Assembly (NCBI RefSeq): GCF_022385335.1
Contig: NZ_CP092431.1
Span: 124,001-188,000, forward strand
DNA: 64,000 nucleotides
From: Streptomyces deccanensis
Lineage (GTDB): Bacteria; Actinomycetota; Actinomycetes; Streptomycetales; Streptomycetaceae
Direction of reading: 5' to 3'
Within the stretch, counting starts at the first letter, position 1. The number at the start of each line of letters is the position of its first letter. Made by a program: the position numbers and the translations under genes. This document shows positions 29,371 to 42,867 of the stretch, piece by piece. Under the pieces are notes generated by a model. It had not been told where the DNA came from. It saw only the letters and a program-made list of their open reading frames with translations, and did not search any database.

Positions 29371-31041
29371 TCACTCGCCGGACAGCACCGCCTGCGCGGC
29401 GCCGCGCGCCTCCTCGGCCGTGTCCGTCGCGCGGGCGGCCGCCGCTGCACGCTCGCACTGCGCCAGCGTGTACTGCGCGAGGGTGGCCCGCACATAGGGA
29501 ATCGACGCGGCGCCCATCGACAGGGAGGTGACCCCCAGGCCGGTCAGCACACAGGCGAGCAACGGGTCGGACGCGGCCTCGCCGCACACCCCGCAGCTCT
29601 TGCCCTCGGCCTTCGCCGCCTCCGCGGACAGCGCGACGAGGTCGAGCAACGCGGGCTGCCAGGGGTCCTGCAGCCGCGAGACCGCACCCACCTGCCGGTC
29701 GGCCGCGAACGTGTACTGCGCGAGGTCGTTGGTCCCCAGCGAGAGGAACTCGACCTCCCGGAGGATCGACCGCGCCCGCAGCGCCGCCGACGGGATCTCC
29801 ACCATGGCACCGAACTTGGCCCGCAGCCCCGCCTCACGACACGCGTCGGCGAACGCCTTGGCCTCGCGACGGTCGGCGACCATCGGTGCCATCACCTCGA
29901 GCTGGACCGGCAGCCCTTCCGAGGCTTTCGCCAGCGCCCGCAGCTGCGTCCGCAGCACCTCGGGGTGATCGAGCAGCGTCCGCAGACCGCGCACACCGAG
30001 AGCGGGGTTCGGCTCGTCCGCCGGAGTCAAGAAGTCCAGAGGCTTGTCGGCACCCGCATCGAGCACACGCACGACCACACGCCCCTCGGGGAAGGCCTCC
30101 AGCACCTGGCGGTACGCCTCGACCTGCTTGTCCTCGGACGGCGCCTGCTCGCTGTCGTCCAGGAACAGGAACTCCGTACGGAACAGCCCGACACCCTCCG
30201 CTCCGGCCTCCACCGCAGCCGGCACGTCGGCCGGGCCCCCGACGTTGGCGAGCAGCGGCACCTTGTGCCCGTCGGAGGTGGCACCCGGGCCGGTGGAAGC
30301 GGCCAGTGACGCCTTCCGCTCTGCGGCCTCGGCCGCCATCCGCTCCGTCTTCTCCTTGCTCGGATTCACGAAGATCTCGCCGGTGCCGCCGTCCACGGCG
30401 ATCATCGTGCCCTCGGCCAGCTCCCCCGCCCCCGGCAGCGCGACGACGGCCGGAACGCCGAGCGCCCGCGCGAGGATCGCGCTGTGACTCGTAGGCCCGC
30501 CCTCCTCGGTCACGAAACCGAGTACCAAAGAGGGGTCGAGCAGCGCGGTGTCCGCCGGCGCGAGATCCCGGGCGATGAGCACGTACGGCTCGTCGCTCTC
30601 CGGCAGACCGGGCATGGGAACGCCCAGCAGCCGGGCGACGATACGATTCCGCACGTCGTCGAGGTCGGCCACCCGCCCGGCGAGGTACTCCCCCGCACCG
30701 GCCAGCAGTGCGCGATACGCGGCGAACGCGTCGCAGACCGCGTGCTCCGCACCGCTGCCGACCGTGATCCGGCGCTCCACATCGGCCATCAGCTCGGGGT
30801 CCTGGGCCATCAGGGCCTGCGCCTCCAGCACCGCCTGGGCGTCACCGCCGGCCAGGTCGCCGCGCTTGATCAGATCGGCGGCCACGGCCTCCATGGCCGT
30901 GCGGGCGCGCCCCTGTTCACGTTCCACGTCCTCCGCCGGTATCCGCTTCGCGGGCGGCTCCAGCACCGCTGTGCCCATGTGCCGAACTTCGCCGATCGCC
31001 ACACCGTGGCTCACGCCGACGCCTCGCAGCGTTGTCTCCAT
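29371..31041 (-). CDS. ptsI: Phosphoenolpyruvate-protein phosphotransferase (PTS Enzyme I)
   Basis: A 556-residue Enzyme I that transfers phosphate from PEP to HPr. The active-site histidine is His186 in GGPTSHSAILAR. The PEP-binding barrel shows GLFRTEFLFLD, KPLDFLTPADEPNPALGVRG, and the C-terminal cysteine of KSCGVCGEAASDP. The N-terminal HPr-binding helices are present and the length is complete. It is encoded near an HPr gene and a glucitol-type permease, so it probably serves this local PTS, though Enzyme I is usually shared by all permeases in the cell. No crr-like gene lies beside it. Start ATG 31041. Confidence 0.95.
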   Translation of the reverse strand: METTLRGVGVSHGVAIGEVRHMGTAVLEPPAKRIPAEDVEREQGRARTAMEAVAADLIKRGDLAGGDAQAVLEAQALMAQDPELMADVERRITVGSGAEHAVCDAFAAYRALLAGAGEYLAGRVADLDDVRNRIVARLLGVPMPGLPESDEPYVLIARDLAPADTALLDPSLVLGFVTEEGGPTSHSAILARALGVPAVVALPGAGELAEGTMIAVDGGTGEIFVNPSKEKTERMAAEAAERKASLAASTGPGATSDGHKVPLLANVGGPADVPAAVEAGAEGVGLFRTEFLFLDDSEQAPSEDKQVEAYRQVLEAFPEGRVVVRVLDAGADKPLDFLTPADEPNPALGVRGLRTLLDHPEVLRTQLRALAKASEGLPVQLEVMAPMVADRREAKAFADACREAGLRAKFGAMVEIPSAALRARSILREVEFLSLGTNDLAQYTFAADRQVGAVSRLQDPWQPALLDLVALSAEAAKAEGKSCGVCGEAASDPLLACVLTGLGVTSLSMGAASIPYVRATLAQYTLAQCERAAAAARATDTAEEARGAAQAVLSGE

Positions 31042-31380
31042 GTCACGCGTCTCCGATCAGTGCGGCAGGGCCCCGCAGCCGCGGTGGTTGTGCGATTCGC
31101 ATGCGACCGCGTCATGGGCGCGATCGTTGTCACTGCCGGCCGAACAGCGCGTCGTCGGCGCTCACTCCGTCGTCCTCACGGACGTCGGAGAGGGAGTCGG
31201 CCCGTGGCTTCCAGGGCCGCAACCGGACAGATCGAGGACGTGCCCGCGGTCGACGGGGGCGGCATCCCACCGGACCACGAACGGTCCACGGTCCACGACC
31301 CCACGACAACGCCGTTTACCGGGCGTGGACTTCGGCAGGCGGGCGGGCGGTGTCGATCGACGGGCGGCGAGCTGAACGGG
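31042..31380. other. Intergenic, probable ptsI control region
   Basis: About 340 bases between two minus-strand genes. It should hold the ptsI promoter but I see no clear hexamers. Near 31285-31305 the words GGTCCACGGTCCACG form a short direct repeat. No gene found. Confidence 0.4.
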
Positions 31381-31692
31381 TCAGGTTCGGGCGATCAGCT
31401 TGATCTCGTGCACCACTTGGGCAAGTTTGTTGATCGCCTTGACCGGCAGGCCGACGACGAAGCGCACCGGATGGTCCTGTGCGTCCGACCGGAGTTTGGC
31501 GGGCAGCCGGCCGAGACGGCCTCGGAAGTCCCGCGTGTACTGCCCTATGACCAGTTCCCTGGGCATCATGGTGGTTTTCTTGCAGTTGTCACAGATGATC
31601 GTGAGCAGGCAGCCGTGGACGTAGGTCAGCCGATGAAGTTGCTCTCCGCCACAGGTGCACTCCAGATACGCGGTTTCCGTGCTCTCGGTCAT
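31381..31692 (-). CDS. Small hypothetical protein with two cysteine pairs
   Basis: A 103-residue protein starting MTESTETAYLECTCGGEQL. Two cysteine clusters, CTC near residue 12 and CDNCKK near residue 37, suggest a small zinc ribbon. The middle is hydrophobic (HGCLLTIICDN), followed by a basic helix (RDFRGRLGRLPAKLRSD) and a tail with VRFVVGLPVKAINKLAQVVH. The ATG at 31692 follows AAGGAGCC with perfect spacing; an upstream in-frame start at 31785 is unlikely. Located between ptsI and a SorC regulator, it may be part of the PTS island. I do not recognise a family. Confidence 0.65.
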   Translation of the reverse strand: MTESTETAYLECTCGGEQLHRLTYVHGCLLTIICDNCKKTTMMPRELVIGQYTRDFRGRLGRLPAKLRSDAQDHPVRFVVGLPVKAINKLAQVVHEIKLIART

Positions 31693-31893
31693 TGTCGGCT
31701 CCTTGGCTTCCTCAAAGCTCACCGCGCCCGTCGGGCAAGTAGTGCAGCAGGCGATCGGGGTGGGGCGGGCGACGGTCAGCGGCATGAGCAGCCCCGGCTT
31801 CTGCCATCAGTCAGCAGGTGCGCCTGGCGCGTGAGCTGAGTGGCGCGTTCAGCCCCAACGATACGCTCACGGCCACCAGACCCCACCCACACG

Positions 31894-31927
31894 TCACATC
31901 TGTGAGTACTCAATTCACGTACGTGAA
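31894..31927. promoter_or_regulatory. Palindromes upstream of the first SorC regulator
   Basis: TCACATCTGTGA (31894-31905) has perfect five-base arms, and TTCACGTACGTGAA (31914-31927) is a perfect 14-base palindrome. They are 140 to 173 bases before the regulator start. They differ from the TTTGCAC motif of the rest of the island, so a different protein may bind here. Confidence 0.45.
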
Positions 31928-32066
31928 AATAGTCCCACGCCGGCCCACCCTTGTCCAGGTCCGCGCAGGAGGGGAACTACGAGTAAGTCCCCAGGCGGGA
32001 CGACCTCCTGGTCGGCTGTGCAACAATCTGGACAGATGTGACGACATGGCGAGGGGAGGGGTGGAC

Positions 32067-33014
32067 ATGCCGGCGTCCCGCGAGCGTGACCTGTTGGCAA
32101 AGGCGGCACGGCTCTACTACCTGGACAACTTGTCGCAGCAACAGGTGGCCAGCGCTTTGGGTGTCAGCCGATCGAACGTCTCACGCATCCTCACTGCCGC
32201 ACGGGACCAGGGGATCGTGGAGATCCGGATCAACGATCCGGCCGGACGTGATCTGGATCTGGAGGAGCGGCTGCAGACCGCCTTCGGGGTGTCCTCCTGC
32301 CGTGTGGCCTCGGTGCACACCGACGAGTCGGCACTGGCCAAGGTGGGAGAGCTGGCGGCCGCCTGGATGCTGGACATGGTCAAGCCCGGCAGAAGCATCT
32401 CGCTCTCCTGGGGGAGCACGCTCCAGGCCATGGTGCACGCCGTCCCTTTCGGGCAGGACCTCGCGGTGGAGATCCTCCCCTTGGTGGGCGGACTTTCCTC
32501 CGTGGCCTCGGAGATCACCGGCGAGGAACTGGTCCGGGAGCTGGCCGACCGCCTGGGCACCACCTACCAGCGACTCCACGCGCCCGCCCTGCTGGAGGCC
32601 AAGGCATCGCGTGACACCCTGATGACCGAGCCGGCCATCGTGAACGTGCTGCACGCCGGTCGCGAGTCCTCTGTCGCCTTCCTCGGTATCGGTGCGATGG
32701 GGGTGGGCTCCTCCGCCGCGATCATCGAGTCGCTCCACCTGAGCGATGGCGATCGGGCGGCCTTCGAAGCGGCGAAGCCGGTGGGCGATGTGTGCGCCCG
32801 GTTCTTCGACGAGGACGGCAACCCGGTGCGCGGGGCGGTCGAGGACAGGGTGCTGGCCATCTCGCTCGACGACCTCCGCCGGATACCCACGGTGGTGGGT
32901 CTGGCGGCAGGCGTCGAGAAGGTCCGGGGAGTGCTGGGCGCGCTGCGCGGACGCTACGTGGACGCCCTCATCTGTGACGCCCCGCTGGCAGAGGCGCTGC
33001 TTGCCGCGGCCTGA
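32067..33014 (+). CDS. SorC-family sugar-binding transcriptional regulator (copy 1)
   Basis: A 315-residue regulator. The N-terminal HTH is LSQQQVASALGVSRSNVSRI (about residues 23-42). The C-terminal sugar-phosphate-binding domain has the family blocks ISLSWGSTLQAMV, ILPLVGGLSS and the FLGIGAMGVGSSA segment, ending GVEKVRGVLGALRGRYVDAL. Members sense phosphorylated sugars or polyols and control catabolic operons. Start ATG 32067 follows GGGGAGGGG and aligns with the start of the second copy at 41881; upstream starts are less likely. The two copies share layout along their whole length and bracket the PTS and dehydrogenase genes. Confidence 0.9.
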   Translation: MPASRERDLLAKAARLYYLDNLSQQQVASALGVSRSNVSRILTAARDQGIVEIRINDPAGRDLDLEERLQTAFGVSSCRVASVHTDESALAKVGELAAAWMLDMVKPGRSISLSWGSTLQAMVHAVPFGQDLAVEILPLVGGLSSVASEITGEELVRELADRLGTTYQRLHAPALLEAKASRDTLMTEPAIVNVLHAGRESSVAFLGIGAMGVGSSAAIIESLHLSDGDRAAFEAAKPVGDVCARFFDEDGNPVRGAVEDRVLAISLDDLRRIPTVVGLAAGVEKVRGVLGALRGRYVDALICDAPLAEALLAAA

Positions 33015-33102
33015 GCCGATCCGGCATCCGGCATCGGCTCCGTACCCGCACCCGCATCCGCGTCCGGCCAGGGCGTGCCCCCTGCCCGCAGGCCGAGGAG
33101 CA

Positions 33103-33159
33103 CGCTGCCGCCACGTCCACTGGCAGTCAGGGCAAGGACAATGTGGACGGGCGGCAGCG
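33103..33159. terminator. Hairpin between convergent SorC and E2 genes
   Basis: The arms 33103-33120 (CGCTGCCGCCACGTCCAC) and 33143-33159 (GTGGACGGGCGGCAGCG) are complementary with a single bulge and a 22-base loop. The position suits a bidirectional terminator ending both transcripts. Confidence 0.65.
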
Positions 33160-33233
33160 CGTTCATGGGGCCACCGGGGTGGCAAGGGCGCCTGCTGACT
33201 GATCGTCGGAGCGCTCCCGGATGAGTGGCGGGG

Positions 33234-34424
33234 TCACCGCCATCCGAACCAGTTCGGGTCGTCCAGGCGTCGCTGGACCGCGTTCAGCAGGCGCGCGGCG
33301 TCCGCGCAGTCACCGACGCGGTGATCGACGGTGAGACCGACCCGGCAGCGGGTGCGCACCCCGACTCCGCCGCCGACGGGGACGACGTGCGGGGCCACCG
33401 CACCGACCGAGAGCGCGGTCGCCTGGGGCGGGTTGAGCAGTTCCTGGAAGGCGTCGACACCCAGGGTGCCCAGGTCGTGCACGGTGGTGGTGGCCGCGGT
33501 CAGGTACTCCACCGGCACCTTGCCGCTGCGGGCGTGGTCGGCCACGCGCCCGAGTCGCTCGTCGAGTTCCTGGATCGGGAACCGGTCCGGGTTGACCAAC
33601 ACCGGGGCGACCGGGCCGAGTTCGGTGTCCACCATCAACCCGACCGCGACGTCGGACCATACCTCGCTGCCCTCCCCGGTCCACCGGGCGTTGAGCGGGC
33701 TGTCCCGCAGGGCATCCGCGTAGGCCCGTACGATCAGGCTGAGCCAGCCGCACTGCCCGCGACGCTCCGCGACGGCCTCGAGGTCGAGGTCACGGAAGAC
33801 GACGGCCTGGGGGACGGCGGCGCTCGCGCTGGTCTGGCGGGCGACGGTCCTGCGGGACCTGTGCCGTGCGGCCGGTGTGGCTGTACCCGCCGGTACTCCG
33901 TTGGTGACTGACGGGGTAGGGGGCACGTGGGGTGCGGGCGCCACGAGTGGGGAGGTCACGGCCTCGACATCGAGCACTCTGATGGTCCCGCCCGGCCCGG
34001 TGCCGTTGAGGGTCGCGAGGTCCACGCCGAGTTCCACCGCCCGGCGTCGGGCGAGCGGCACGGCCGACACGACGGTCGAGAGGGGCGGCGGCGCAGCCGG
34101 CGTGGTGGCGAGCGCCGCCGCAGCGGGCGGTGGAGCCTCCGCCTCGGCCGGCCCGTCGAGGAGGTCGCCCAGCAGGTCGTCCGCGTCGCTGCTGAGGTAG
34201 GCGATCGGCTCGCCGACAGCGATCACATCGTCGGGCTGCGCCACCAGTCGGAGCAGGATTCCGTCGACGGGAGATTCGACCTCCATGTCGACCTTGTCGG
34301 TCGCGACCTCGCACACCACGTCGCCGGCGCGGATCTCGTCGCCCTCCGCCTTGTGCCAGGTGAGGAACGTGCCCTCCTCCATCGTCATGGACATCTTGGG
34401 CATGACCAGGGGGATCTCAGCCAT
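33234..34424 (-). CDS. Lipoyl E2 acyltransferase of a 2-oxoacid/acetoin-type dehydrogenase complex
   Basis: A 396-residue E2 core protein that moves an acyl group from E1 to CoA. Residues 1-80 are a lipoyl domain with lipoyl-lysine Lys44 in ATDKVDME. An alanine/proline linker follows, then a peripheral subunit-binding domain (VPLARRRAVELGVDLATLNG) and the catalytic domain from about 190. The active-site block reads VDHRVGDCADA: catalytic His368 and the aspartate are kept, but the usual glycine of HxxxDG is cysteine. Its ATG overlaps the E1-beta stop as ATGA, so it is translationally coupled. No E3 gene is in the window; the general dihydrolipoamide dehydrogenase would serve. Confidence 0.92.
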   Translation of the reverse strand: MAEIPLVMPKMSMTMEEGTFLTWHKAEGDEIRAGDVVCEVATDKVDMEVESPVDGILLRLVAQPDDVIAVGEPIAYLSSDADDLLGDLLDGPAEAEAPPPAAAALATTPAAPPPLSTVVSAVPLARRRAVELGVDLATLNGTGPGGTIRVLDVEAVTSPLVAPAPHVPPTPSVTNGVPAGTATPAARHRSRRTVARQTSASAAVPQAVVFRDLDLEAVAERRGQCGWLSLIVRAYADALRDSPLNARWTGEGSEVWSDVAVGLMVDTELGPVAPVLVNPDRFPIQELDERLGRVADHARSGKVPVEYLTAATTTVHDLGTLGVDAFQELLNPPQATALSVGAVAPHVVPVGGGVGVRTRCRVGLTVDHRVGDCADAARLLNAVQRRLDDPNWFGWR

Positions 34425-35473
34425 CACCACGACCTGACCAGGCGGGTGGCCTCGGCCACGATGTCGGGGACCTGGGGCACGGCCGCGCGCTCCAGCTGGG
34501 GCGCGTAGGGGATCGGTACGTCCAGGCCGCTGAGGCGGCGGATCGGAGCCCGAAGGCGGCCGAACGCGTCCGAGTCGGCGATCAGTGCGGCGATCTCGGC
34601 CATGTAGCCGCAGGTCTTGGGGGCTTCCTGGACCAGCAGGGCGCGCCCGGTGGCGGCCACTTCCGAGATGATCGTCGCCTCGTCCAGCGGGACGAGGGTG
34701 CGGGGGTCGACGACGGTTGCGGTGATGCCCTCCTCGGCGAGCAGTTGCTGGGCGGCTTCCTCGGCGCGGGACACCATGATGCCGGTGGCCACGATGGTGA
34801 GGTCCTGGCCCTGCCGGCGGACCGCCGCCTGCCCGAGAGGGATGCGGTCGGCGCCGGCGGGCACGGGTCCGCTCTGCTTGTAGAGCAGTTTGTGTTCGAG
34901 GACGATGACCGGGTTGGGGTCGTCGATGGCGGCCAGCAGCAGGCCCTTGGCCTCTGCCGGGGTGGCGGGCATGACGACCTTCAGCCCGGGGATGTGGGCG
35001 AACCAGGTCTCCAGGCTCTGGGAGTGCTGGGCGGCGGCGCCGGTGCCGGAGCCGGTGGGGGCACGCAGCACCATCGGAACGCGGGCCGCGCCACCGAGCA
35101 TGAAGTGGATCTTCGCGGCCTGGTTGGCGATCTGGTCCATGGCCTGGGCCGTGAAGTCGGAGAACTGGATCTCCACGATGGGCCGCATGTCGGCCAGCGC
35201 GGCGCCGACCGCCGCGCCGACGATGCCCAGTTCGCTGATCGGGGTGTCGCGCACCCGCTCCTCGCCGAAGCGGTGCACCAGGTCGCCGGTGACGCCGAAG
35301 GCGCCTCCGTAGATGCCGATGTCCTCGCCGAGGACGAAGACGCGGGGGTCGGTCTGCATGGCCTCGGCGAGGGCCTCGCGGACCGCCTCGGCGTAGGTGA
35401 GGGTGCGCTCCGACGGGTCGGCCGGCGGCCGCGCCGTCGTCGCGGCCGCCGGGCTCGGGAGTGTGGTGGTCAT
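34424..35473 (-). CDS. E1-beta subunit, TPP-dependent dehydrogenase
   Basis: A 349-residue transketolase-like E1 beta subunit. It has [20 protein letters not shown] with the TPP-contacting glutamate, the block [28 protein letters not shown], and the C-terminal transketolase domain with [11 protein letters not shown]. The first 25 residues are a disordered-looking alanine/proline tail. Together with the alpha subunit 18 bases upstream it forms the heterotetrameric E1 that decarboxylates a 2-oxoacid or cleaves a ketol, leaving the acyl group on lipoate. Family resemblance covers pyruvate, branched-chain and acetoin dehydrogenases; sequence alone does not choose. Confidence 0.92.
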
Positions 35474-35491
35474 GTGCAGGTCTCCGATGAG

Positions 35492-36460
35492 TCAGACGGC
35501 GTAGACGGCGGAGGTGAGTTCCGCGGCGCTGGCGTCGGGGGCGGCGTTCGCCGTGCGTACGGCGTCGCGCACCGCGTCACGTGCGTCGGCCTGGCACTGC
35601 TGTGCCTCGGCTTCGGTGAGGGTGCCGGCGTCGAGCAGGGTGGCGGTGTAGCGGGCGATCGGGTCACGGTCGCGCCACTCGTCGATCTCCTGGCGCGTGC
35701 GGTAGAGGTTCTTGTCGCTCTTGGAGTGGCCCTTCCAGCGGTAGGTGAGTGCTTCCACGAAGGTGGGGCCGCCGCCCGCGCGGGCCCGCTCCACGGCGGT
35801 GCGGACGACTTCCTGTACGGCGGCCACGTCGTTGCCGTCGACGGTGACGCCGGGGATGCCGTAGCCGGCGGCGCGCTCGGCCAGGCGCTCCACGCGGAAC
35901 GCCCGCTGGACGGACATGGACATTCCGTAGTTGTTGTTCTCGCAGATGAACACCACGGGCAGGTCCCAGATGGCGGCGAGGTTGACTCCCTCGTGCCAGG
36001 CGCCCTCGTTGACCGCGCCGTCGCCGAAGAAGCTCAGCGCCACCCGGTCCTCGCCGCGCAGCCGGCTGGCCAGGGCGGCACCGGCGGCGATGGGGACACC
36101 ACCGGCGACGATGCCGTTCGCGCCCAGGTTGCCCGTCGCCACGTCGGCGATGTGCATCGAGCCGCCGCGGCCCCGGCAGTACCCGGTCTCCTTGGCGAGC
36201 AACTCGGCCATCATGCGGTCGAGTTGGGCGCCGCGGGCGATGCAGTGTCCGTGGCCGCGGTGGGTGGAGGTGATGTAGTCGCCGTCGCGCAGTTCGGCGC
36301 AGGCACCGACCGGCACCGCCTCCTGACCGATCGACAGGTGCATGGTGCCGTGCATCATGCCGCGGGCGAAGAGGTCGTCGACGGCCTCCTCGAACCGGCG
36401 GATGGTCCACATCGTGGTGAGGGCGGAACGGGCCGCCTCGGCGTCCTTGATCAGGTCCAT
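35492..36460 (-). CDS. E1-alpha subunit, TPP-dependent dehydrogenase
   Basis: A 322-residue E1 alpha subunit. The thiamine diphosphate motif begins at GDG (146-148) and closes at ENN (174-176). [39 protein letters not shown] and [17 protein letters not shown] are conserved E1-alpha blocks. The length of about 320 and the THRGHGH... GxGGSMH layout are those of acetoin/pyruvate-type E1 alpha, not the longer branched-chain type. Start ATG 36460 follows GAAGGGGAC. It is 14 bases downstream of the SAF-domain dehydrogenase, so all four genes form one operon and probably one pathway. Confidence 0.92.
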
Positions 36461-36474
36461 GCTCACAGTCCCCT

Positions 36475-37803
36475 TCACGCGGCCAGAGGGTCGGTCGGCG
36501 CCACCGGCAGGTCGATCCGCTCCCCCGCCAACAGTCGGTCCTGCAGACGCCTCAGGGTCGCGATCATGGCGTTCTGGTCGATCCGCACGTCCTGGTGGGT
36601 GAGCACGGTCCCGGCGGGGACGTCCCGCACCACCTCGGCGCCGGCGGCGAGGCCCAGGGGCACCAGAGCGTCGGCCGCCGTCGCCTCGGCGCTCTCGGCG
36701 AGTCCGTACACGGTGGATCCGCCGATGCCGTCTATGCGTTCGCCGGCCCGCAGGTCCCGCTTGGCGACCGCGACCACCTCGGCGTTCCACACCGTCGGCG
36801 CGAGGCTCGGGACGCGGTCCAGCACTGCCTCGGCGACGGAGAGCGGAGCCTCGACGCTGGCCAGGTGGTAGGGCCGGTAAAACGAGTAGTAGGGCCCCTC
36901 GCCCATCCCGAGGTACTCCATCTCGGCGGTGACGACCGGGTCGTCGCTGTGACCGATGACAAACACACCGGGCGCGACCGGACCGGTGCAGTAGTCCACC
37001 ACCCCGGCGGCGGGAAGCACGCCGCCGTCCGCCTCCGGGCGGAAGGTCTTGGCCAGGTCGGCGACCGTCGAGTGGGGACCGGTCATGCCGCGCCGGCTGA
37101 GCCGGAGGTCCGTCGCGTTGGCCAGCGCCACCATCTCGATCATCGTCTTGGAGCCGTCGACGAAACTGGCCAGCATCTTCGGGTTCATGCCCTTGGCCGT
37201 GGCCTGATCGGTCAGCGCCTCGGGGGTGGCCGTCGGGTCGAGGGGGTTGTTCTTGCCCTTGCCGGCACAGACCACGCTGAACCCGATGTCCCGCACGTAG
37301 TCCACCAGCCGCTTGCACTCCACCGGTTCGTCACCGCGACAGACCGTGTAGACGCGGCCCATGCGCTGCGCGACCGTCGACAGCAGCAGACCGATCGTCA
37401 CATCGCACTCCACGTTGAGCAGTGCGATGTCCTTGCCCGCGAGCAGGCCGAAGAAAGCGACCGAGGCACCGACGTCCGGCACACCGCTGGCGTCGACGAT
37501 GATGTCGATCGGCAGCGAGACGAGGTCCAGCGCGTCGGTGACGACGACCGGCCTGCCTCCCAGCACCGCGGCGGCCCGCTCGTCGGCCGTGCCGCCGCTG
37601 AGCGCCTGGCCCCGGTCCGAGCGCTTGAACGCCTCGTGACCGCGTTCCGGGTCGATGTCGGCGATCGCGGAGATCTCCATGCCCGGGATGTGCGCCACCT
37701 GCGCGACGAAACCGAGTCCCATCTGCCCAGCGCCCACGAGGCCCACCCGAACCGGCCGGCCGAGCTTCTGCTCCCGCTCCCGCAACTGATCCCTGTAGCT
37801 CAT
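36475..37803 (-). CDS. COG4091-type NAD(P)-dependent oxidoreductase with SAF domain (DRL-like)
   Basis: A 442-residue oxidoreductase. Residues 17-160 form a Rossmann domain with GAGQMG (24-29) and IADIDPERG; the middle shows the block [20 protein letters not shown]; the last 70 residues are a SAF domain ([27 protein letters not shown]). This architecture is COG4091, annotated as homoserine-dehydrogenase-like. From memory, that family contains the DXR-like (DRL) enzyme of Brucella, which interconverts deoxyxylulose 5-phosphate and methylerythritol 4-phosphate. Start ATG 37803 (MSYRDQ) follows GGAAGGGACCGG. First gene of the operon with E1-alpha, E1-beta and E2; downstream of a polyol PTS operon. 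It probably acts on the phosphorylated polyol. The exact substrate is inferred. Confidence 0.85.
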
Positions 37804-37850
37804 GCTCCGGTCCCTTCCTGCCACCCGGTCGATCTCCGACCCACTGGGCG

Positions 37851-37923
37851 CATTTGCACATCCGTGCATTTGATATGCACGTTGGTGATTTACTTGGTAG
37901 CACGGGTGCGGCACCCAGGACAA
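37851..37923 (-). promoter_or_regulatory. Promoter and SorC-type operators before the dehydrogenase operon (site A)
   Basis: On the minus strand TTGTCC (37918-37923) and TACCAA (37894-37899) are 18 bases apart. Downstream, plus-strand TTTGCACATCCGTGCAT (37853-37869) has the form TTGCA-N6-TGCA and is followed by a second palindrome, GTGCATTTGATATGCAC (37865-37881). The first word is nearly the same as the site before ptsH. Position downstream of the promoter suits a repressor. Confidence 0.7.
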
Positions 37924-37988
37924 GGCCTGGGTCGACTCCTCCCGTCGGCGGGCGGTGAGCGACTGCCGACAGGTGAATGTCATGGCCA

Positions 37989-38012
37989 TGTCAGACACAT
38001 ATGTCAGGCACA
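37989..38012 (+). repeat. Direct repeat TGTCAGrCACA, two copies
   Basis: TGTCAGACACA (37989-37999) and TGTCAGGCACA (38002-38012) are 13 bases apart, a spacing close to one helical turn. They lie in the 311-base gap between gutM and the SAF dehydrogenase, upstream of its predicted promoter, so an activator site is possible. Confidence 0.6.
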
Positions 38013-38047
38013 CGCAGCCCCGGCGCTGCGGGACGCGGTATGAGACA

Positions 38048-38079
38048 GGCGCCGCCGGCGACTACTCGCAGGCGGCGCC
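38048..38079. terminator. Hairpin at the end of the srl operon
   Basis: GGCGCCGCC (38048-38056) and GGCGGCGCC (38071-38079) pair perfectly, with an extra internal GCG/CGC pairing in the loop. It lies 36 bases after the gutM stop. Confidence 0.6.
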
Positions 38080-38114
38080 CACGAACCGCACCGTGCTCCT
38101 GTAGTGGAGGTCGT

Positions 38115-38537
38115 TCACCGTGTCGACCACATCCGGAGAGCGGGGCCGTGATCGACCGTGGCGCCGGACTGCATCCGGCGGTAGCGGTCGCGGGCGTCCT
38201 CAACCGCGCGTGCCATGGCGGTGGATCCGGCCCGGGACGACGCCGTGCTCAGCTTCCCGGTGAGCTGCGGGCGTTCGCGGAAGCGGGCGAGAACGGAAGC
38301 CCCCTGCATCACCAGGGCTCGTTCGACGACGCTGTCGCTCCGCCGCACGAGCAGCAGCACCACGGCGCCGCGAAGCCGCCCGGTGGCGCGGCCGGAGACG
38401 AGGGTGACACCCGCCCGGTGCTCCTGGCCGGCGAGCTTGTTCACGGTGCGCATGTAGTAGCGGTGCTGGGCCACGCTCGCCAGAAGCGAGAGCACGAAGC
38501 CGCCGAGCAGCAGCAGGGCCAAGGGCAGGTATTCCAT
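38115..38537 (-). CDS. gutM: GutM/SrlM-family glucitol operon protein
   Basis: A 140-residue protein with one N-terminal membrane helix (PLALLLLGGFVLSLLA) followed by a soluble domain with GQEHRAGVTLVSGRATGRLR and ERALVMQGASVLARFRERPQ. The pattern, a short helix, then a G-x-G strand pair, then the ILKGITVFA-type block, is that of GutM/SrlM, the glucitol operon activator of enterobacteria. Here it is 20 residues longer at the C-terminus. It is the last gene of the srl operon, 11 bases after a small zinc-ribbon gene. The membrane anchor is odd for a transcription activator and suggests a role at the permease. Confidence 0.75.
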   Translation of the reverse strand: MEYLPLALLLLGGFVLSLLASVAQHRYYMRTVNKLAGQEHRAGVTLVSGRATGRLRGAVVLLLVRRSDSVVERALVMQGASVLARFRERPQLTGKLSTASSRAGSTAMARAVEDARDRYRRMQSGATVDHGPALRMWSTR

Positions 38538-38548
38538 GAGTCCTCTTT

Positions 38549-38923
38549 TCAGGGGCCTTCGGTTCCGGCCCCTCGTTCAGGAGGGGAGGGGACTGCCGGC
38601 CGCTCCTGTCCGTCACCCTCGGGGAGGAAGGGCGAGCGGGCCGGCAGTCCCGGTATGCGGGGCAGGCCGAAGGAGGAGCGGTGGCGGACCTTCCTGGCCG
38701 CCACCGCACTCCGTATCCGATCGGGATTCCGGCCGCGCAGCCGGACCGTTCCGCAGCTCAGACACATCAGGGCCGCCACCTCGGTGGTGACTTCGGTGGT
38801 GCCGAGACGGTAGGCGAAGCGAGGTGAGCCGAGCAGTGGCAGTGCCATGGATCCCTCGACGAGCGTCCCGCCGCAGTCGCGACAGGCGTCCTCCGCCGGG
38901 GCGCTGTCATCAGGGGCGTTCAT
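38549..38923 (-). CDS. Small hypothetical zinc-ribbon-like protein
   Basis: A 124-residue protein that I cannot name. Two cysteine pairs, CRDCGG (about residues 14-19) and CLSCG (about 54-58), are 40 residues apart as in a rubredoxin-like zinc ribbon. After this comes a basic helix RNPDRIRSAVAARKVRHRSS and a proline-rich tail. ATG 38923 follows AAGGAG. It lies between srlB and gutM in the same operon. No such gene belongs to the classical srl operon, so it is a lineage-specific addition; a regulatory or protein-binding role is possible. Confidence 0.65.
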   Translation of the reverse strand: MNAPDDSAPAEDACRDCGGTLVEGSMALPLLGSPRFAYRLGTTEVTTEVAALMCLSCGTVRLRGRNPDRIRSAVAARKVRHRSSFGLPRIPGLPARSPFLPEGDGQERPAVPSPPERGAGTEGP

Positions 38924-38987
38924 GGTGTGCTGCTCCTTCCGCCTCGCCGCGGCCGCGCCGCGTGCGCACCTCGGTCCGGCCGCACCG

Positions 38988-39359
38988 TCACGCGCGGACG
39001 AGCCTCAGTTCGGTTCCCGGTGCGGGAACCTCGAGCGGACCGTCTGCGTGCAACGCTCCGGGCAGCAGCCCGGCGGCCGGATCGGGGTCCACGTAGACGA
39101 CCACGTGACCGAGGGTCGTCAGGTTCTCCTGGGCGCGCTCCCCCACCGCGGTCAGGGTCAGCCGGGTCTCGCCGAGCCACAGCTCGTCGCCCGGTCGGAT
39201 CTCCTGGGCGGGGGTGTCGGCCGGCTCGTGCACCACGCTGAGGCTCTCCAGGTCCCCCGGAAGCGGCTCACCGAAGAGGATGAGGACGCCGCCGTTGATG
39301 AGGTCCGCGGCTTCGTCGCCGACGCGGAGGATGGTGCTCTGGTAGTAGAGGTCGTTCAT
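38988..39359 (-). CDS. srlB: PTS glucitol/sorbitol-family EIIA
   Basis: A 123-residue EIIA that passes phosphate from HPr to EIIB. It matches the small beta-rich Gut-type IIA: YYQSTILRVGDEA at the start, ESLSVVHEPADTP with the probable phosphoacceptor His44, RLTLTAVGERAQENLTTLGH, and the closing VPAPGTELRLV. Length is that of the family. Its ATG overlaps the stop of the upstream EIIBC gene as TGATG, so it is coupled. Substrate specificity lies in the membrane subunits, not here. Confidence 0.92.
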   Translation of the reverse strand: MNDLYYQSTILRVGDEAADLINGGVLILFGEPLPGDLESLSVVHEPADTPAQEIRPGDELWLGETRLTLTAVGERAQENLTTLGHVVVYVDPDPAAGLLPGALHADGPLEVPAPGTELRLVRA

Positions 39360-40411
39360 CAGTACATCCCGAAGCTGACGAGCCAGGCAAGGGCCACGGC
39401 GAGGGGCGAGGTGATCAGACGGCTGAGCAGTACCGCCGGCGTACCGACCGCCACCGTCTCGGGTTTCGCCTCACCGAGGGCGAGACCGACGGGGATGAAG
39501 TCGCAGCCGACCTGGCCGTTGATGGCGAACAGGGTGGGCAGAGCGTACTCGACGGGGATGGTTCCCGCGGCGATCTGCGTGCCCATCAGCACCCCGATGA
39601 TCTGGGCGATCGCCGCTCCGGGCCCCAGGATCGGGGACAGGAAGGGCAGGGCCACCACGGCACCGAGGGCGATGAGACCGAGCGGATTCGAGGCCAGCGG
39701 CTTGAGGCCCTCGCCCATCGCCTCGGCGACGCCGGTGTAGAGGACGAACCCCAGCAGCAGGCTGACGTACGCCATGAACGGAAGGATGGTGCTGATCGTC
39801 AGGGTGATGGCCTGCCGGCCCGAGGCCAGAAGGGTGTTGACCGCGTAGCCGATGCCGGAGCTGAACTTGATGAACCCGTCGGATATCCGGGAGAAGAGTC
39901 CGCCGCCACCCGACGGCTGGGCGACGGGCTCGGTGACCGGGTCCGCGGTCTGGTCGCGGTTGTCCCCGGCCGATGGCGAGTCCGGTGCCGGCGCCGCCTC
40001 GGCGTCGTCCTCCGCCCCCTCCTCGACCACGACATCGTCCACCCCCACGTCGGAGACGAAGATGTCCTCGGTGATGAACTGGGCGAGCGGGCCGCCGGGC
40101 GCGCCGGGATACACGTCGATCGTCGGTATCCGCTTGCGTGGATAGACACCTATCCGAGCGGTGCCGCCGCAGTTGATCACCGCGCAGAGGACCTCGTCGT
40201 CGGGGACGGTGGTGCGGAACCCGTCGACGGCCTCCGCCCCGGTCAGCTCCGCGATCCGCTGGGCGACGGGGTGAATACCCCCGCCCGTGACCGACAGCAC
40301 CTTGTTGCGGGTCTCGGTGCGGCGCAGGGTGAGTCCGTCGCCCCAACCGCCCGAGCCCTTGCGGACGAACACCGAGGGGTAGGTGCGCGGGCTCTGCTCG
40401 GTGGTCGTCAT
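39359..40411 (-). CDS. srlE: PTS glucitol/sorbitol-family EIIB/EIIC2
   Basis: A 350-residue subunit. Residues 10-125 are the cytoplasmic IIB domain, with phosphocysteine candidate Cys81 in AVINCGGTARIGVYPRKRIP, very close to the enterobacterial pattern CGGTxRCGIYP. An acidic proline-rich linker follows (about 125-165). The C-terminal half is the membrane part with about five helices and the block GQVGCDFIPVGLALGEAKPE. The start overlaps the EIIC stop as ATGA. It phosphorylates the polyol during import at the inner membrane. Sorbitol is the textbook substrate of the family, but relatives with other polyols exist. Confidence 0.92.
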   Translation of the reverse strand: MTTTEQSPRTYPSVFVRKGSGGWGDGLTLRRTETRNKVLSVTGGGIHPVAQRIAELTGAEAVDGFRTTVPDDEVLCAVINCGGTARIGVYPRKRIPTIDVYPGAPGGPLAQFITEDIFVSDVGVDDVVVEEGAEDDAEAAPAPDSPSAGDNRDQTADPVTEPVAQPSGGGGLFSRISDGFIKFSSGIGYAVNTLLASGRQAITLTISTILPFMAYVSLLLGFVLYTGVAEAMGEGLKPLASNPLGLIALGAVVALPFLSPILGPGAAIAQIIGVLMGTQIAAGTIPVEYALPTLFAINGQVGCDFIPVGLALGEAKPETVAVGTPAVLLSRLITSPLAVALAWLVSFGMY

Positions 40412-41079
40412 CGTGTGCCTCCGGTCACCGTGAGCGCGCTGCTGGCGTTGCCCGTGGTGAATTCCTCGTCGAACTTGCGGAAGATCTCGGTGCGGCCGGT
40501 TCTCTTGATCAGGATGAGAGTGATCCGCTCGGTGACGACGCCCCTGATGAAGATCACCACGACGCCCGTGGCGAGGTAGTACAGCGCCAGGGGCACGGTG
40601 GACAGACCCAGCTTCTGCACGCCACTGGCGATGCCCAGCCAGACGAACAGCTCGCCGGCGTTGGCGTAGGGGAAGAACGAGGTCACCGGGTGGACGAAGG
40701 AGACCGCCGAGTCGTAGAAGGCCGGCTTGTACTTCTCGGGCAGGAACCTGCCGAACGAGTAGCACATCGGGTTGGTGAGCATCAGCACGGCGAGCACCGG
40801 CATGACGGTGTACCGGGTGATCCACCAGCGCGAGGACCACTCGACGGCCCGGGTCACGCGCTTCTCGCCGACGAACGTCACCAGCGCGTACATGGCGGTG
40901 AGCAGGACGATCAGCGTGGGGAGAATCCCGGTCACCAGACCGGTGAACTGCTTGCCGGCCTCGTTGAACAGGCCGATGAAATGGGAGCCGACCCAGACTG
41001 CGCCACGAATGACGGGGTTGTCACTCTCCTCGCCCTGGGGTGTCGACGCCGCCAGGGCTGCCGCGGCAACGGTAACCAT
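40408..41079 (-). CDS. srlA: PTS glucitol/sorbitol-family EIIC
   Basis: A 223-residue membrane subunit with four to five helices. Blocks FIGLFNEAGKQFTGLVTGIL, NPMCYSFGRFLPEKYKPAFY and SFVHPVTSFFPYANAGELFV are characteristic of GutA/SrlA. The first 30 residues carry an alanine-rich helix and are longer than in enterobacteria. ATG 41079 with GGAGGG upstream fixes the start; the longer frame to 41265 lacks coding character. First gene of the srl operon, divergent from ptsH, with a TTTGCAC site between. Forms the translocation pore with EIIC2. Confidence 0.9.
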   Translation of the reverse strand: MVTVAAAALAASTPQGEESDNPVIRGAVWVGSHFIGLFNEAGKQFTGLVTGILPTLIVLLTAMYALVTFVGEKRVTRAVEWSSRWWITRYTVMPVLAVLMLTNPMCYSFGRFLPEKYKPAFYDSAVSFVHPVTSFFPYANAGELFVWLGIASGVQKLGLSTVPLALYYLATGVVVIFIRGVVTERITLILIKRTGRTEIFRKFDEEFTTGNASSALTVTGGTR

Positions 41080-41258
41080 CTCGGCCCTCCTCTCTGTTTC
41101 TGAGCGGGGATACGGAGGTCTCTGTCTCCGAGTGGGGATGCGGAGGCCGGCCGGAGCCCATGGCCCGTACGGCGGAGACGAGTAGGCGGCTCTGGTGGGG
41201 TGGGGAGCCGGCGTGATCGGGATGCGACGGGAGGAACGGGGATCATGCAGCACGTGGG

Positions 41259-41329
41259 TTTGCACGTCTGCTCAGAGTTCCTCACCTCTGTTCGATAGAG
41301 GTGTAGCACCGGGCAGCGCGGCGCGACAA
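41259..41329 (-). promoter_or_regulatory. srl operon promoter region (site B) with inverted repeat
   Basis: On the minus strand TTGTCG (41324-41329) and CTACAC (41301-41306) are 17 bases apart. Perfect seven-base arms CACCTCT (41283-41289) and AGAGGTG (41297-41303) overlap the -10. Plus-strand TTTGCACGTCTGCTCA (41259-41274) is a weaker copy of the SorC-type word found at sites A and C. Confidence 0.6.
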
Positions 41330-41434
41330 GATGTCGAACCTAATTACGCTGTGTGACAGCCAGGGAAACTCGGCCCGCCGGCCCGAGCCTCGCCCGCGCC
41401 CTCAAGGGCGCGCACCGGGCATCGACGGCCGCCG

Positions 41435-41451
41435 TTTGCACATTGATGCAA
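41435..41451 (+). promoter_or_regulatory. SorC-type operator before ptsH (site C)
   Basis: TTTGCACATTGATGCAA contains perfect arms TTGCA and TGCAA around six bases and shares TTTGCACAT-N3-TGCA with site A. It lies 100 bases upstream of ptsH. Regulation by the SorC protein encoded behind ptsH is the simplest idea. Confidence 0.65.
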
Positions 41452-41550
41452 TTCTTCTTCACATCTGTCCACCGGCTGTGTAACGTGCAGCTTCGCCCAG
41501 CCCTCGGCCAACGAGAGCGTACTTTGCCGGACAAATCGAAGGAGAACGCT

Positions 41551-41823
41551 GTGCCTGAGACCCGTGTCACGATCGCGTCCGAGGTGGGACTGCACGCCCG
41601 GCCCGCGGCGGCCTTCGTCCAGGCGGCCGCGAAGCAGCCGTGCCAGGTGTCGATAGGCAGGGAGGAAGGGGCGCCGGTGAACGCGAAGAGCATGCTCGCC
41701 GTGCTGTCCCTCGCACTCCGACACGGCGAGCAGGTCGTGCTGCGTACCGAAGGCACCGAGGAGGAGGCGGCTCTTGCCGACCTCGCCGACCTGCTCGCGC
41801 GAGACCTCGACGCGGTGTCATGA
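41551..41823 (+). CDS. ptsH: HPr phosphocarrier protein
   Basis: A 90-residue HPr. Active-site His15 lies in GLHARPAAAFVQAA, and the regulatory-serine region reads NAKSMLAVLSLA with Ser47 in the place of Ser46 of Gram-positive HPr. GTG 41551 follows AAGGAG at ideal spacing; an upstream in-frame start at 41353 is not supported. It carries phosphate from Enzyme I to EIIA. It sits back to back with the srl operon and in front of a SorC gene, so it is probably expressed with this PTS. Whether the genome has another HPr is not visible here. Confidence 0.93.
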   Translation: MPETRVTIASEVGLHARPAAAFVQAAAKQPCQVSIGREEGAPVNAKSMLAVLSLALRHGEQVVLRTEGTEEEAALADLADLLARDLDAVS

Positions 41824-41880
41824 CGCGCGTTTTCCGCGGTCACCGCACAGCACCGCTTGACGCACCCCCGAGGAAGCACC

Positions 41881-42867
41881 ATGCCGACGGCACGTGATCA
41901 GCACCTGCTGGTGAAGGTCGCCCGCATGTACTACGAGGAGGGTCGCTCCCAGCAGGAGATCGCCCATGCCCTCAGCGTCAGCCGGCCCAACGTCTCCCGG
42001 ATGCTCGCCGCTGCCCGGGAGAGAGGGATCGTCGAGATCAGCATTCACGATCCGGCAGGGCGCGACCTGTCCCTGGAGAGCGAGCTGCGCGCGAGGTTCG
42101 GGCTGCGCGACTGCCGGGTGGCCGATGCCCCGGGAAGTGACCGCACGCTTGCCCACGTCGGGGACCTCGGAGCCCGCTGGCTGCTGGAGACCATGCGGCC
42201 CGAGCAGCGCGTGGGGGTGTCCTGGGGGCGCACGCTTCAGGCGGTTGTGCAGCACGTCCCCGACAACGGCGGGCTCAATGTCGAAGTGCTCCCCCTTGTC
42301 GGCGGGCTGTCCTCCGTGGACAGCGAGATCACCGGTGAGGAGCTGGTACGGGACCTGGCCGCCCGCCTCGGCGGCCGCTTCCGCCACCTGCACGCTCCCG
42401 CCCTGCTCACCACCCCGGCGAGCAGACAGATCCTGCTCGCCGAGCCCTCCGTCCAGGACGCGCTCGAAGCAGCCGAACAGGTCGCTATCGCGCTGGTCGG
42501 CATCGGCAGCCACGGCGTCGGATCGTCCGCGGCGATCATCGACGCGCTGGCACTCGACCCGCGGGAAAGGGAGGAGTTCGACAACCGCCAACCAGCAGGC
42601 GACCTTTGCGCGCGCTTCTTCGACGTCGACGGAAGACCCATTCCCGGTCCGGTCGACGAGCGGGTGCTGGCCGTATCCCTGGAGCAACTCTCCAGAATCC
42701 CGCTCGTGGCGGGGGTGGCGGCGGGCGCGGAGAAGGCCCGCGGCGTGCTCGGCGCCCTGCGCAGCGGTGCGCTCGACGTACTGATCTCCGACAGCTCCCT
42801 CGCTCGCGCCCTGCTCTCCGCCCAGGGCACTTCCGCGAAGTCCTCTTCGGCACCAGCTACTCGATGA
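41881..42867 (+). CDS. SorC-family sugar-binding transcriptional regulator (copy 2)
   Basis: A 328-residue regulator parallel to the one at 32067. HTH: RSQQEIAHALSVSRPNVSRM. Effector domain: VGVSWGRTLQAVVQ, VLPLVGGLSSVDSEITGEEL and ALVGIGSHGVGSSAAIIDAL. The start MPTARDQHLLVKVARMYY aligns with copy 1 (MPASRERDLLAKAARLYY). It follows ptsH by 57 bases and is likely co-transcribed. Two regulators of the same type in one island suggest division of work: one could answer the phosphorylated polyol and the other a later intermediate. Confidence 0.9.
   Translation: MPTARDQHLLVKVARMYYEEGRSQQEIAHALSVSRPNVSRMLAAARERGIVEISIHDPAGRDLSLESELRARFGLRDCRVADAPGSDRTLAHVGDLGARWLLETMRPEQRVGVSWGRTLQAVVQHVPDNGGLNVEVLPLVGGLSSVDSEITGEELVRDLAARLGGRFRHLHAPALLTTPASRQILLAEPSVQDALEAAEQVAIALVGIGSHGVGSSAAIIDALALDPREREEFDNRQPAGDLCARFFDVDGRPIPGPVDERVLAVSLEQLSRIPLVAGVAAGAEKARGVLGALRSGALDVLISDSSLARALLSAQGTSAKSSSAPATR

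Follow-up and report, generated by a model that had tools for sequence, protein, structure and literature searches.

A glucitol-type phosphotransferase island for the probable catabolism of 2-C-methylerythritol through the reverse reaction of an isoprenoid enzyme

We analysed a 64-kb stretch (the window) of the Streptomyces deccanensis genome, which is a single contig of 10.1 Mb, and focused on an island that joins a glucitol (Gut)-type phosphotransferase system (PTS) to an oxidoreductase resembling the DXR-II enzyme of Brucella (DRL) and to the E1 and E2 components of a dehydrogenase complex. Enzyme I (EI), HPr, EIIC, EIIBC, EIIA, GutM, two SorC regulators, the dehydrogenase, E1-alpha, E1-beta and E2, all of them claimed by a first-pass annotation of this DNA, were found within the limits that it had drawn for the island (Table 1). 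The transcription order on the minus strand is EIIC, EIIBC, EIIA, a protein with CxxC pairs, GutM, DRL, E1-alpha, E1-beta and E2, and these genes overlap or are separated by 11 to 64 bases, the exception being a gap of 311 bases preceding DRL. HPr and one of the SorC genes are transcribed divergently from EIIC, and past E2 there are the other SorC gene, a gene for a small zinc-ribbon-like protein and the EI gene.

Pfam or NCBIfam identifies the family of every island protein except two small ones, the zinc-ribbon-like protein (for which the longer frame 31381-31785 was scanned) and the CxxC protein, neither of which has a Pfam family. EI and HPr each contain their active-site motif, and E2 has its lipoyl motif together with lipoyl, E3-binding and catalytic domains. 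The genome holds two copies of EI and two of HPr, and the island encodes one of each. Regarding the permease, the EIIC, EIIBC, EIIA and GutM families are all there, and the island therefore has a Gut-type PTS like that of the srl (gut) operon of E. coli K-12. Unlike that operon, it has SorC regulators in place of SrlR, a private EI and HPr, and no sorbitol-6-phosphate dehydrogenase (SrlD): none was found among the island proteins, all scanned with Pfam or NCBIfam, in agreement with the first-pass annotation. Furthermore, its EIIBC lies outside the sorbitol clade, since two srlD-linked rows and two rows linked to short-chain dehydrogenases/reductases (SDR) form a clade apart from the EIIBC proteins of clusters like this one (support 100, with only these four references).

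Table 1. Genes and operator-like sites of the island (positions in the window)
Feature	Position	Strand	Evidence
Enzyme I of PTS	29371..31041	-	TIGR01417 437.8 bits, over cut-off; GGPTSHSA motif
Zinc-ribbon-like protein, 103 aa	31381..31692	-	recurrent companion of cluster (26/80 related loci)
SorC-family sugar-binding regulator 1	32046..33014 (alternative start 32067)	+	PF04198 198 bits
E2 dihydrolipoamide acyltransferase	33234..34424	-	PF00198, PF00364, PF02817; lipoyl motif TDK
E1-beta, thiamine diphosphate-dependent dehydrogenase	34424..35473	-	PF02779, PF02780; NF006667 over cut-off
E1-alpha	35492..36460	-	PF00676 310 bits; cluster-specific clade near acetoin E1-alpha (trees)
DRL / DXR-II-type oxidoreductase, 442 aa	36475..37803	-	PF21135 (DRL_cat) 217 bits; SAF 36.6 bits
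Palindromic operator-like site, ~50 bp upstream of DRL	37855..37868	+	pattern scan
GutM	38115..38537	-	PF06923 51 bits
124-aa protein with CxxC pairs	38549..38923	-	no Pfam family
PTS EIIA, glucitol type	38988..39359	-	PF03829 84 bits
PTS EIIBC, glucitol type	39359..40411	-	NF049924 427 bits, over cut-off; tree
PTS EIIC, glucitol type	40408..41079	-	NF049923 218 bits, over cut-off
Second operator-like site, between EIIC and HPr/SorC2	41437..41450	+	pattern scan
HPr, GTG start	41551..41823	+	TIGR01003 84.4 bits; GLHARPAA motif
SorC-family sugar-binding regulator 2	41881..42867	+	NF053881 194.9 bits, below its cut-off

The likeness of the dehydrogenase to the Brucella DRL, put forward by the first-pass annotation, was confirmed by alignment with the Brucella abortus enzyme (3UPY/3UPL, E value about 1e-94; 5e-95 for 3UPY) and by structure. 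The AlphaFold2 model of the window DRL, made from 22 sequences and with a mean pLDDT of 94.4, matches 3UPY with a TM score of 0.92 and a root-mean-square deviation of 1.7 A over 431 columns; other proteins among the 50 PDB matches listed for the model reached a TM score of 0.42 at most. The window protein shares with the Brucella enzyme the fold and the architecture of DRL_cat and SAF on a Rossmann domain that marks the DXR-II family, and in a quick tree of 127 rows (midpoint root) both belong to one clade of 108 rows (SH-aLRT 84). According to passages of Carretero-Paulet et al. 2013 (PMC3847144), fosmidomycin is anchored in DXR-II by Thr229 with Lys191 and Lys193, and Thr229 separates DXR-II from the look-alikes DLO1 and DLO2. 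The window DRL keeps Lys191, Lys193 and Thr229, as well as Arg320 and Tyr322 of the dimer cavity, and a DLO1/DLO2-type dehydrogenase was rejected because Thr229 is present. Of the distinct DRLs that have PTS genes, E1 genes or both beside them, 84/84 keep both lysines and 78/84 keep Thr229.

Where the second strand of the Rossmann domain ends, an acidic residue usually means NAD. Residue 48, which stands there, is acidic (Asp or Glu) in all 83 readable distinct cluster DRLs, being Asp in the window, whereas the Brucella enzyme has Ala and then Arg-Arg. The residue is non-acidic in 8/9 readable DRLs linked to a polyprenyl synthetase, and it is Asp in 9/26 readable members of the wider DRL group with Ser229. 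The acidic residue of the cluster DRLs agrees with work in the oxidation direction, although it is no proof of direction, and we propose the window DRL as a candidate NAD-dependent oxidoisomerase of 2-C-methyl-D-erythritol 4-phosphate (MEP). The window enzyme also differs from that of Brucella in belonging to an operon with PTS and E1/E2 genes and in being encoded by a genome that has its own DXR-I.

To see how often these genes stand together, we scanned species genomes, which gave at least 587 relatives, and took the best 80 as related loci, many of the relatives being metagenome-assembled genomes of unknown completeness. Partners were called by tblastn with the window proteins and a few plasmid proteins, so that any partner too distant or truncated was scored as missing. 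A Gut PTS lies beside DRL in 56/80 loci, E1 in 51/80, and both in 48/80; for the 38 loci flanked by 8 kb or more on either side, the respective counts are 33, 31 and 31. In this genome scan the closest named relative of the window DRL is that of Streptomyces spongiae (93 percent). The linkage was seen in Actinomycetota, Chloroflexota, Bacillota and Pseudomonadota, thus reaching beyond the actinobacteria for which co-occurrence had been suggested, and a chance grouping was set aside because it recurs across these phyla. The DRL domain was found in 64 of 396 genomes of the phylum. We read 60 loci, of which 58 came from the phylum search and two, both of Streptomyces, from that of the order (some of these sequences, several in number, were already among the 80), and found both partners in 19, E1 only in 4 and neither in 37. 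Within the order (293 genomes) 23 have the DRL domain, only 3 of them a close DRL (more than 200 bits), and EIIBC-GUT occurs solely in the same 3. A scan of viral contigs gave no match.

The gene sets vary outside Streptomyces. Rhizobium and Pseudoroseomonas plasmids carry the set plus ptsP, a Priestia plasmid record has the cluster set together with E3, and plasmid records of Agrobacterium and Sinorhizobium meliloti have an ABC transporter, a PfkB-type kinase, E3 and lipoyl synthase with the set. The PTS is thus replaced elsewhere by a transporter and a kinase, and a phosphorylated substrate would therefore be the common point. In Sinorhizobium fredii NGR234 the only DRL match of the replicon sits in a SorC-DRL-E1-E2-E3 operon, and the gene set of Listeria innocua is SorC-DRL-GutM-EIIC-EIIB-EIIA; both bacteria appear among those with DXR-II in the table of PMC3847144. 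A Ligilactobacillus PTS-DRL cluster has fructose-6-phosphate aldolase (FSA) and transketolase in place of E1/E2. FSA can make 1-deoxyxylulose from hydroxyacetone, as a passage of PMC7767278 describes, therefore an aldol exit from 1-deoxy-D-xylulose 5-phosphate (DXP) is conceivable there.

The E1 genes of these loci form a group of their own. In a careful tree, 56 cluster E1-alpha rows (55 distinct) and one Clostridioides plasmid gene share one side of a branch (support 98/83), with nine other sequences on the opposite side. The nearest group in a quick tree brings together the four acetoin E1-alphas, a pair of second copies and two further genes, and the E1-alphas of pyruvate dehydrogenase (PDH) and branched-chain 2-oxoacid dehydrogenase are placed further out, on long branches. 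In their clusters the acetoin references are accompanied by acetoin reductase, by butanediol dehydrogenase or by a sigma-54 regulator. The island resembles acetoin dehydrogenase (aco) clusters in the order E1-alpha, E1-beta, E2 and in its nearest E1-alpha group; it differs in its separate clade and in having none of the three companion genes just named. The island E1-alpha scores 372.5 bits against the pyruvate dehydrogenase model TIGR03182, under the cut-off of 393.85. A plain acetoin or pyruvate dehydrogenase was rejected on these grounds, namely the position outside the acetoin clade and the score below the cut-off. Two side observations concern such genes: the Clostridioides difficile plasmid (locus L155) carries SorC, the cluster-clade E1-alpha, E1-beta, E2 and E3, with no DRL annotated in the 14.8 kb read, and two Pseudonocardiaceae loci (L034:18285-20607 and L036:18322 onward) have a second, acetoin-type E1/E2 set after the cluster.

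Regarding regulation, a palindrome like TGCACA-NN-TGTGCA occurs twice in the window, both times at the island, and this shared candidate operator before both operons suggests one regulon. With at most one mismatch it is found no more than 350 bases upstream of DRL in only 11/80 loci, ten of them of Streptomyces or Pseudonocardiaceae, and at 40 sites across all 80 loci; a shuffle test of the palindrome is not independent, because the sites had been seen before the pattern was defined.

Many clusters also include a gene of the IspD type (MEP cytidylyltransferase). It lies in or beside the cluster in 27/48 PTS+E1 loci, where no more than 1.2 kb separates it from the closest gene of the cluster, and in 5/8 PTS loci, and it was found in 0/22 control loci (210 kb of controls versus 1281 kb for the 80 loci). 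In ten Pseudonocardiaceae loci IspD follows E2 on the same strand within 120 bases. The ispD model TIGR00453 is the best for 10/10 cluster IspDs tested, above its cut-off in 3, and a ribitol-type cytidylyltransferase was rejected because this model beats the ribitol-5-phosphate model in all ten. Sorbitol or ribitol catabolism was likewise rejected, given these cytidylyltransferases and the absence of SrlD. Among 25 searched PTS+E1 genomes with IspD, 13 have another strong IspD (E below 1e-20) elsewhere, therefore the cluster-linked one is an added copy in them; the window genome has an IspD outside the island. At two loci the DRL-IspD pair faces another, divergent IspD-like gene in convergent orientation (L063:11947-12561 and L057:6559-7212).

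Relatives of DRL are found in isoprenoid operons as well. DRLs without PTS and E1 directly precede IspD in small-genome actinobacteria (Planktophila, Nanopelagicales), and in an actinobacterial family (f14, e.g. L216, L214, L221 and L196) a DRL subclade, mostly with Ser229, lies beside polyprenyl synthetase and hopanoid-type genes; besides the synthetase, some loci have a squalene-hopene cyclase, a DUF3463-containing radical SAM protein, an FMN-dependent dehydrogenase and a GHMP kinase. The f14 enzymes look like a further isoprenoid DXR-II set because none of the 30 genomes with other DRLs tested in the phylum sample has DXR-I; in that sample DXR-I is present in 16/23 cluster genomes (Fisher 1.7e-8, a value that flatters the difference because the genomes are related). 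In 50 genomes reached through named loci, DXR-I was found in 27/37 with PTS+E1, 1/6 with PTS and 0/7 with neither. Brucella DXR-II itself is nested within rhizobial DRL-E1-E2 enzymes (support 99, 127-row quick tree). Together, the linked IspD genes and the DRL relatives in isoprenoid operons point to MEP and DXP over another polyol.

In eight cluster genomes, six with PTS+E1 and two with PTS only, 3-hydroxy-3-methylglutaryl (HMG)-CoA reductase is present, with no DXR-I and no IspD match above about 51 bits; these genomes (completeness not given) belong to Sediminivirga, Terrimesophilobacter, Pseudoclavibacter, Nakamurella and, in four cases, Chloroflexota. Their isoprenoids should therefore come via the mevalonate route, and DRL would hardly serve isoprenoid synthesis in them.

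We consider it probable that the island is a self-contained pathway for the catabolism of 2-C-methyl-D-erythritol, as the first-pass annotation had proposed; the linkage, the IspD genes in clusters and the isoprenoid operons of DRL relatives support it at the level of sequence. The PTS would take up methylerythritol and phosphorylate it with phosphoenolpyruvate to MEP; DRL, run in reverse of its isoprenoid direction, would convert MEP into DXP and NADH; and E1/E2, with an E3 from elsewhere, would split DXP, a methyl ketol, into acetyl-CoA and glyceraldehyde 3-phosphate. Acetoin dehydrogenase and this complex would have in common that they cleave a methyl ketol, releasing an aldehyde and passing on an acetyl group. 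The SorC regulators would control both operons via the common palindrome, and the linked IspD of many relatives could divert part of the MEP to isoprenoids. The metabolites MEP and DXP, and in many relatives IspD, are shared with the MEP pathway; the proposed flow leads to acetyl-CoA and glyceraldehyde 3-phosphate, not to isopentenyl diphosphate. Gene content, recurrence, phylogeny, active-site residues and operator-like sites were observed directly in the sequences, and from these we infer the substrate, direction, cofactor, E1 reaction and regulation.

Several observations weigh against this pathway. The NCBIfam equivalog models label EIIBC and EIIC as glucitol/sorbitol proteins, and the acetoin and sorbitol reference sequences were few. 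In the window DRL, His250 of Brucella and the dimer-cavity residues Glu174 and Phe178 are replaced by Thr, Arg and Tyr, and 6/84 distinct cluster DRLs have Ala at Thr229. Acidic residues at position 48 are also found in 52/79 readable non-cluster DRLs, including DRLs that keep the Asp and stand next to IspD in genomes where DXR-I is missing. Partners are missing in part of the loci: 21/80 have neither PTS nor E1 (9 of these 21 have IspD instead), certain PTS+DRL loci are without E1, and the Streptomyces clusters, the window's included, have no IspD in the cluster. Of the 25 genomes with a linked IspD, 12 (e.g. Klenkia, Kocuria, Cryobacterium) list no other strong IspD, therefore the linked copy may be their housekeeping gene. 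Finally, neither DXR-I nor HMG-CoA reductase is present in ten cluster genomes (L066, L070, L085 and L092 of the 50; G309, G315, G354, G409, G485 and G559 of the phylum sample), therefore DRL probably also makes MEP for isoprenoids there.

These last genomes, the IspD genes of more than half of the PTS+E1 clusters and the DRL-IspD pairs in genomes without DXR-I would fit a supply of isoprenoids rather than carbon catabolism, either by salvage of methylerythritol to MEP and its cytidylyl derivative CDP-ME or by an E1 that makes DXP for reduction by DRL. A mutant E. coli PDH raises DXP about 20-fold, as a passage of PMC3424233 reports, with an E1 of another type. However, making DXP requires no E2, PTS and SorC regulators suit the use of a carbon source, the window genome has DXR-I and IspD elsewhere, and the eight genomes with HMG-CoA reductase speak against it too, so that we regard isoprenoid supply as unlikely to be the role of the island.

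It is quite unlikely, in our judgement, that the same DRL/E1/E2 chemistry serves a different branched or deoxy polyol, such as a 2-C-methylthreitol isomer, apiitol or a 1-deoxy-hexitol. The glucitol/sorbitol names of the EII proteins, the three replaced residues and the Ligilactobacillus cluster with FSA and transketolase could be read that way. Nevertheless, IspD, which acts on MEP, is part of many clusters and DRL relatives stand in isoprenoid-type operons; a hydroxymethyl-branched polyol would, by chemical reasoning, give an ordinary ketopentose phosphate, with no E1/E2 required; and the formation of 1-deoxyxylulose by FSA makes its presence fit DXP too. That an ordinary sorbitol PTS stands by chance beside an unrelated dehydrogenase and an acetoin/pyruvate dehydrogenase complex, as the equivalog names of EIIBC and EIIC would allow, is extremely improbable given the linkage in 48/80 loci of several phyla, the co-occurrence in three of three genomes of the order, the separate clade of the srlD- or SDR-linked EIIBCs, the cluster-specific E1-alpha clade and the operator-like site before both operons.

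Regarding the family as a whole, we lean somewhat towards a DXR-II that was at its root catabolic for methylerythritol, coupled to phosphorylating uptake and, for the cleavage of DXP, to a lipoamide complex or to an aldolase (FSA, for instance). The isoprenoid role in Brucella, in Planktophila-type actinobacteria and in family f14 would then represent separate recruitments, and in two of these the acidic NAD-type residue would have been lost. Such an origin would account for the patchy occurrence of the family and for DXR-II enzymes in bacteria that have no other part of the MEP pathway.

The two small proteins of the island also have relatives. Chained searches found homologues of the zinc-ribbon-like protein, of about 100 aa, in 26/80 related loci, often directly 3' of IspD (e.g. 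L035:15050-15418, L057:6245-6562 and L086:6520-6933). Matches of the CxxC protein between EIIA and GutM are confined to Streptomyces clusters.

Among the matches listed in open-licence PubMed Central full text we found no report that methylerythritol is taken up, utilised or catabolised. Plants make this compound and it also arises in air when isoprene is oxidised, and given these sources it may be a common substrate. With the cluster, bacteria can most likely live on it by driving an enzyme of isoprenoid synthesis in reverse. If this is true, the odd scatter of DXR-II among bacteria would be explained. The presence of DXR-II then need not imply the presence of the MEP pathway, which would bear on annotation and on drug-target arguments.

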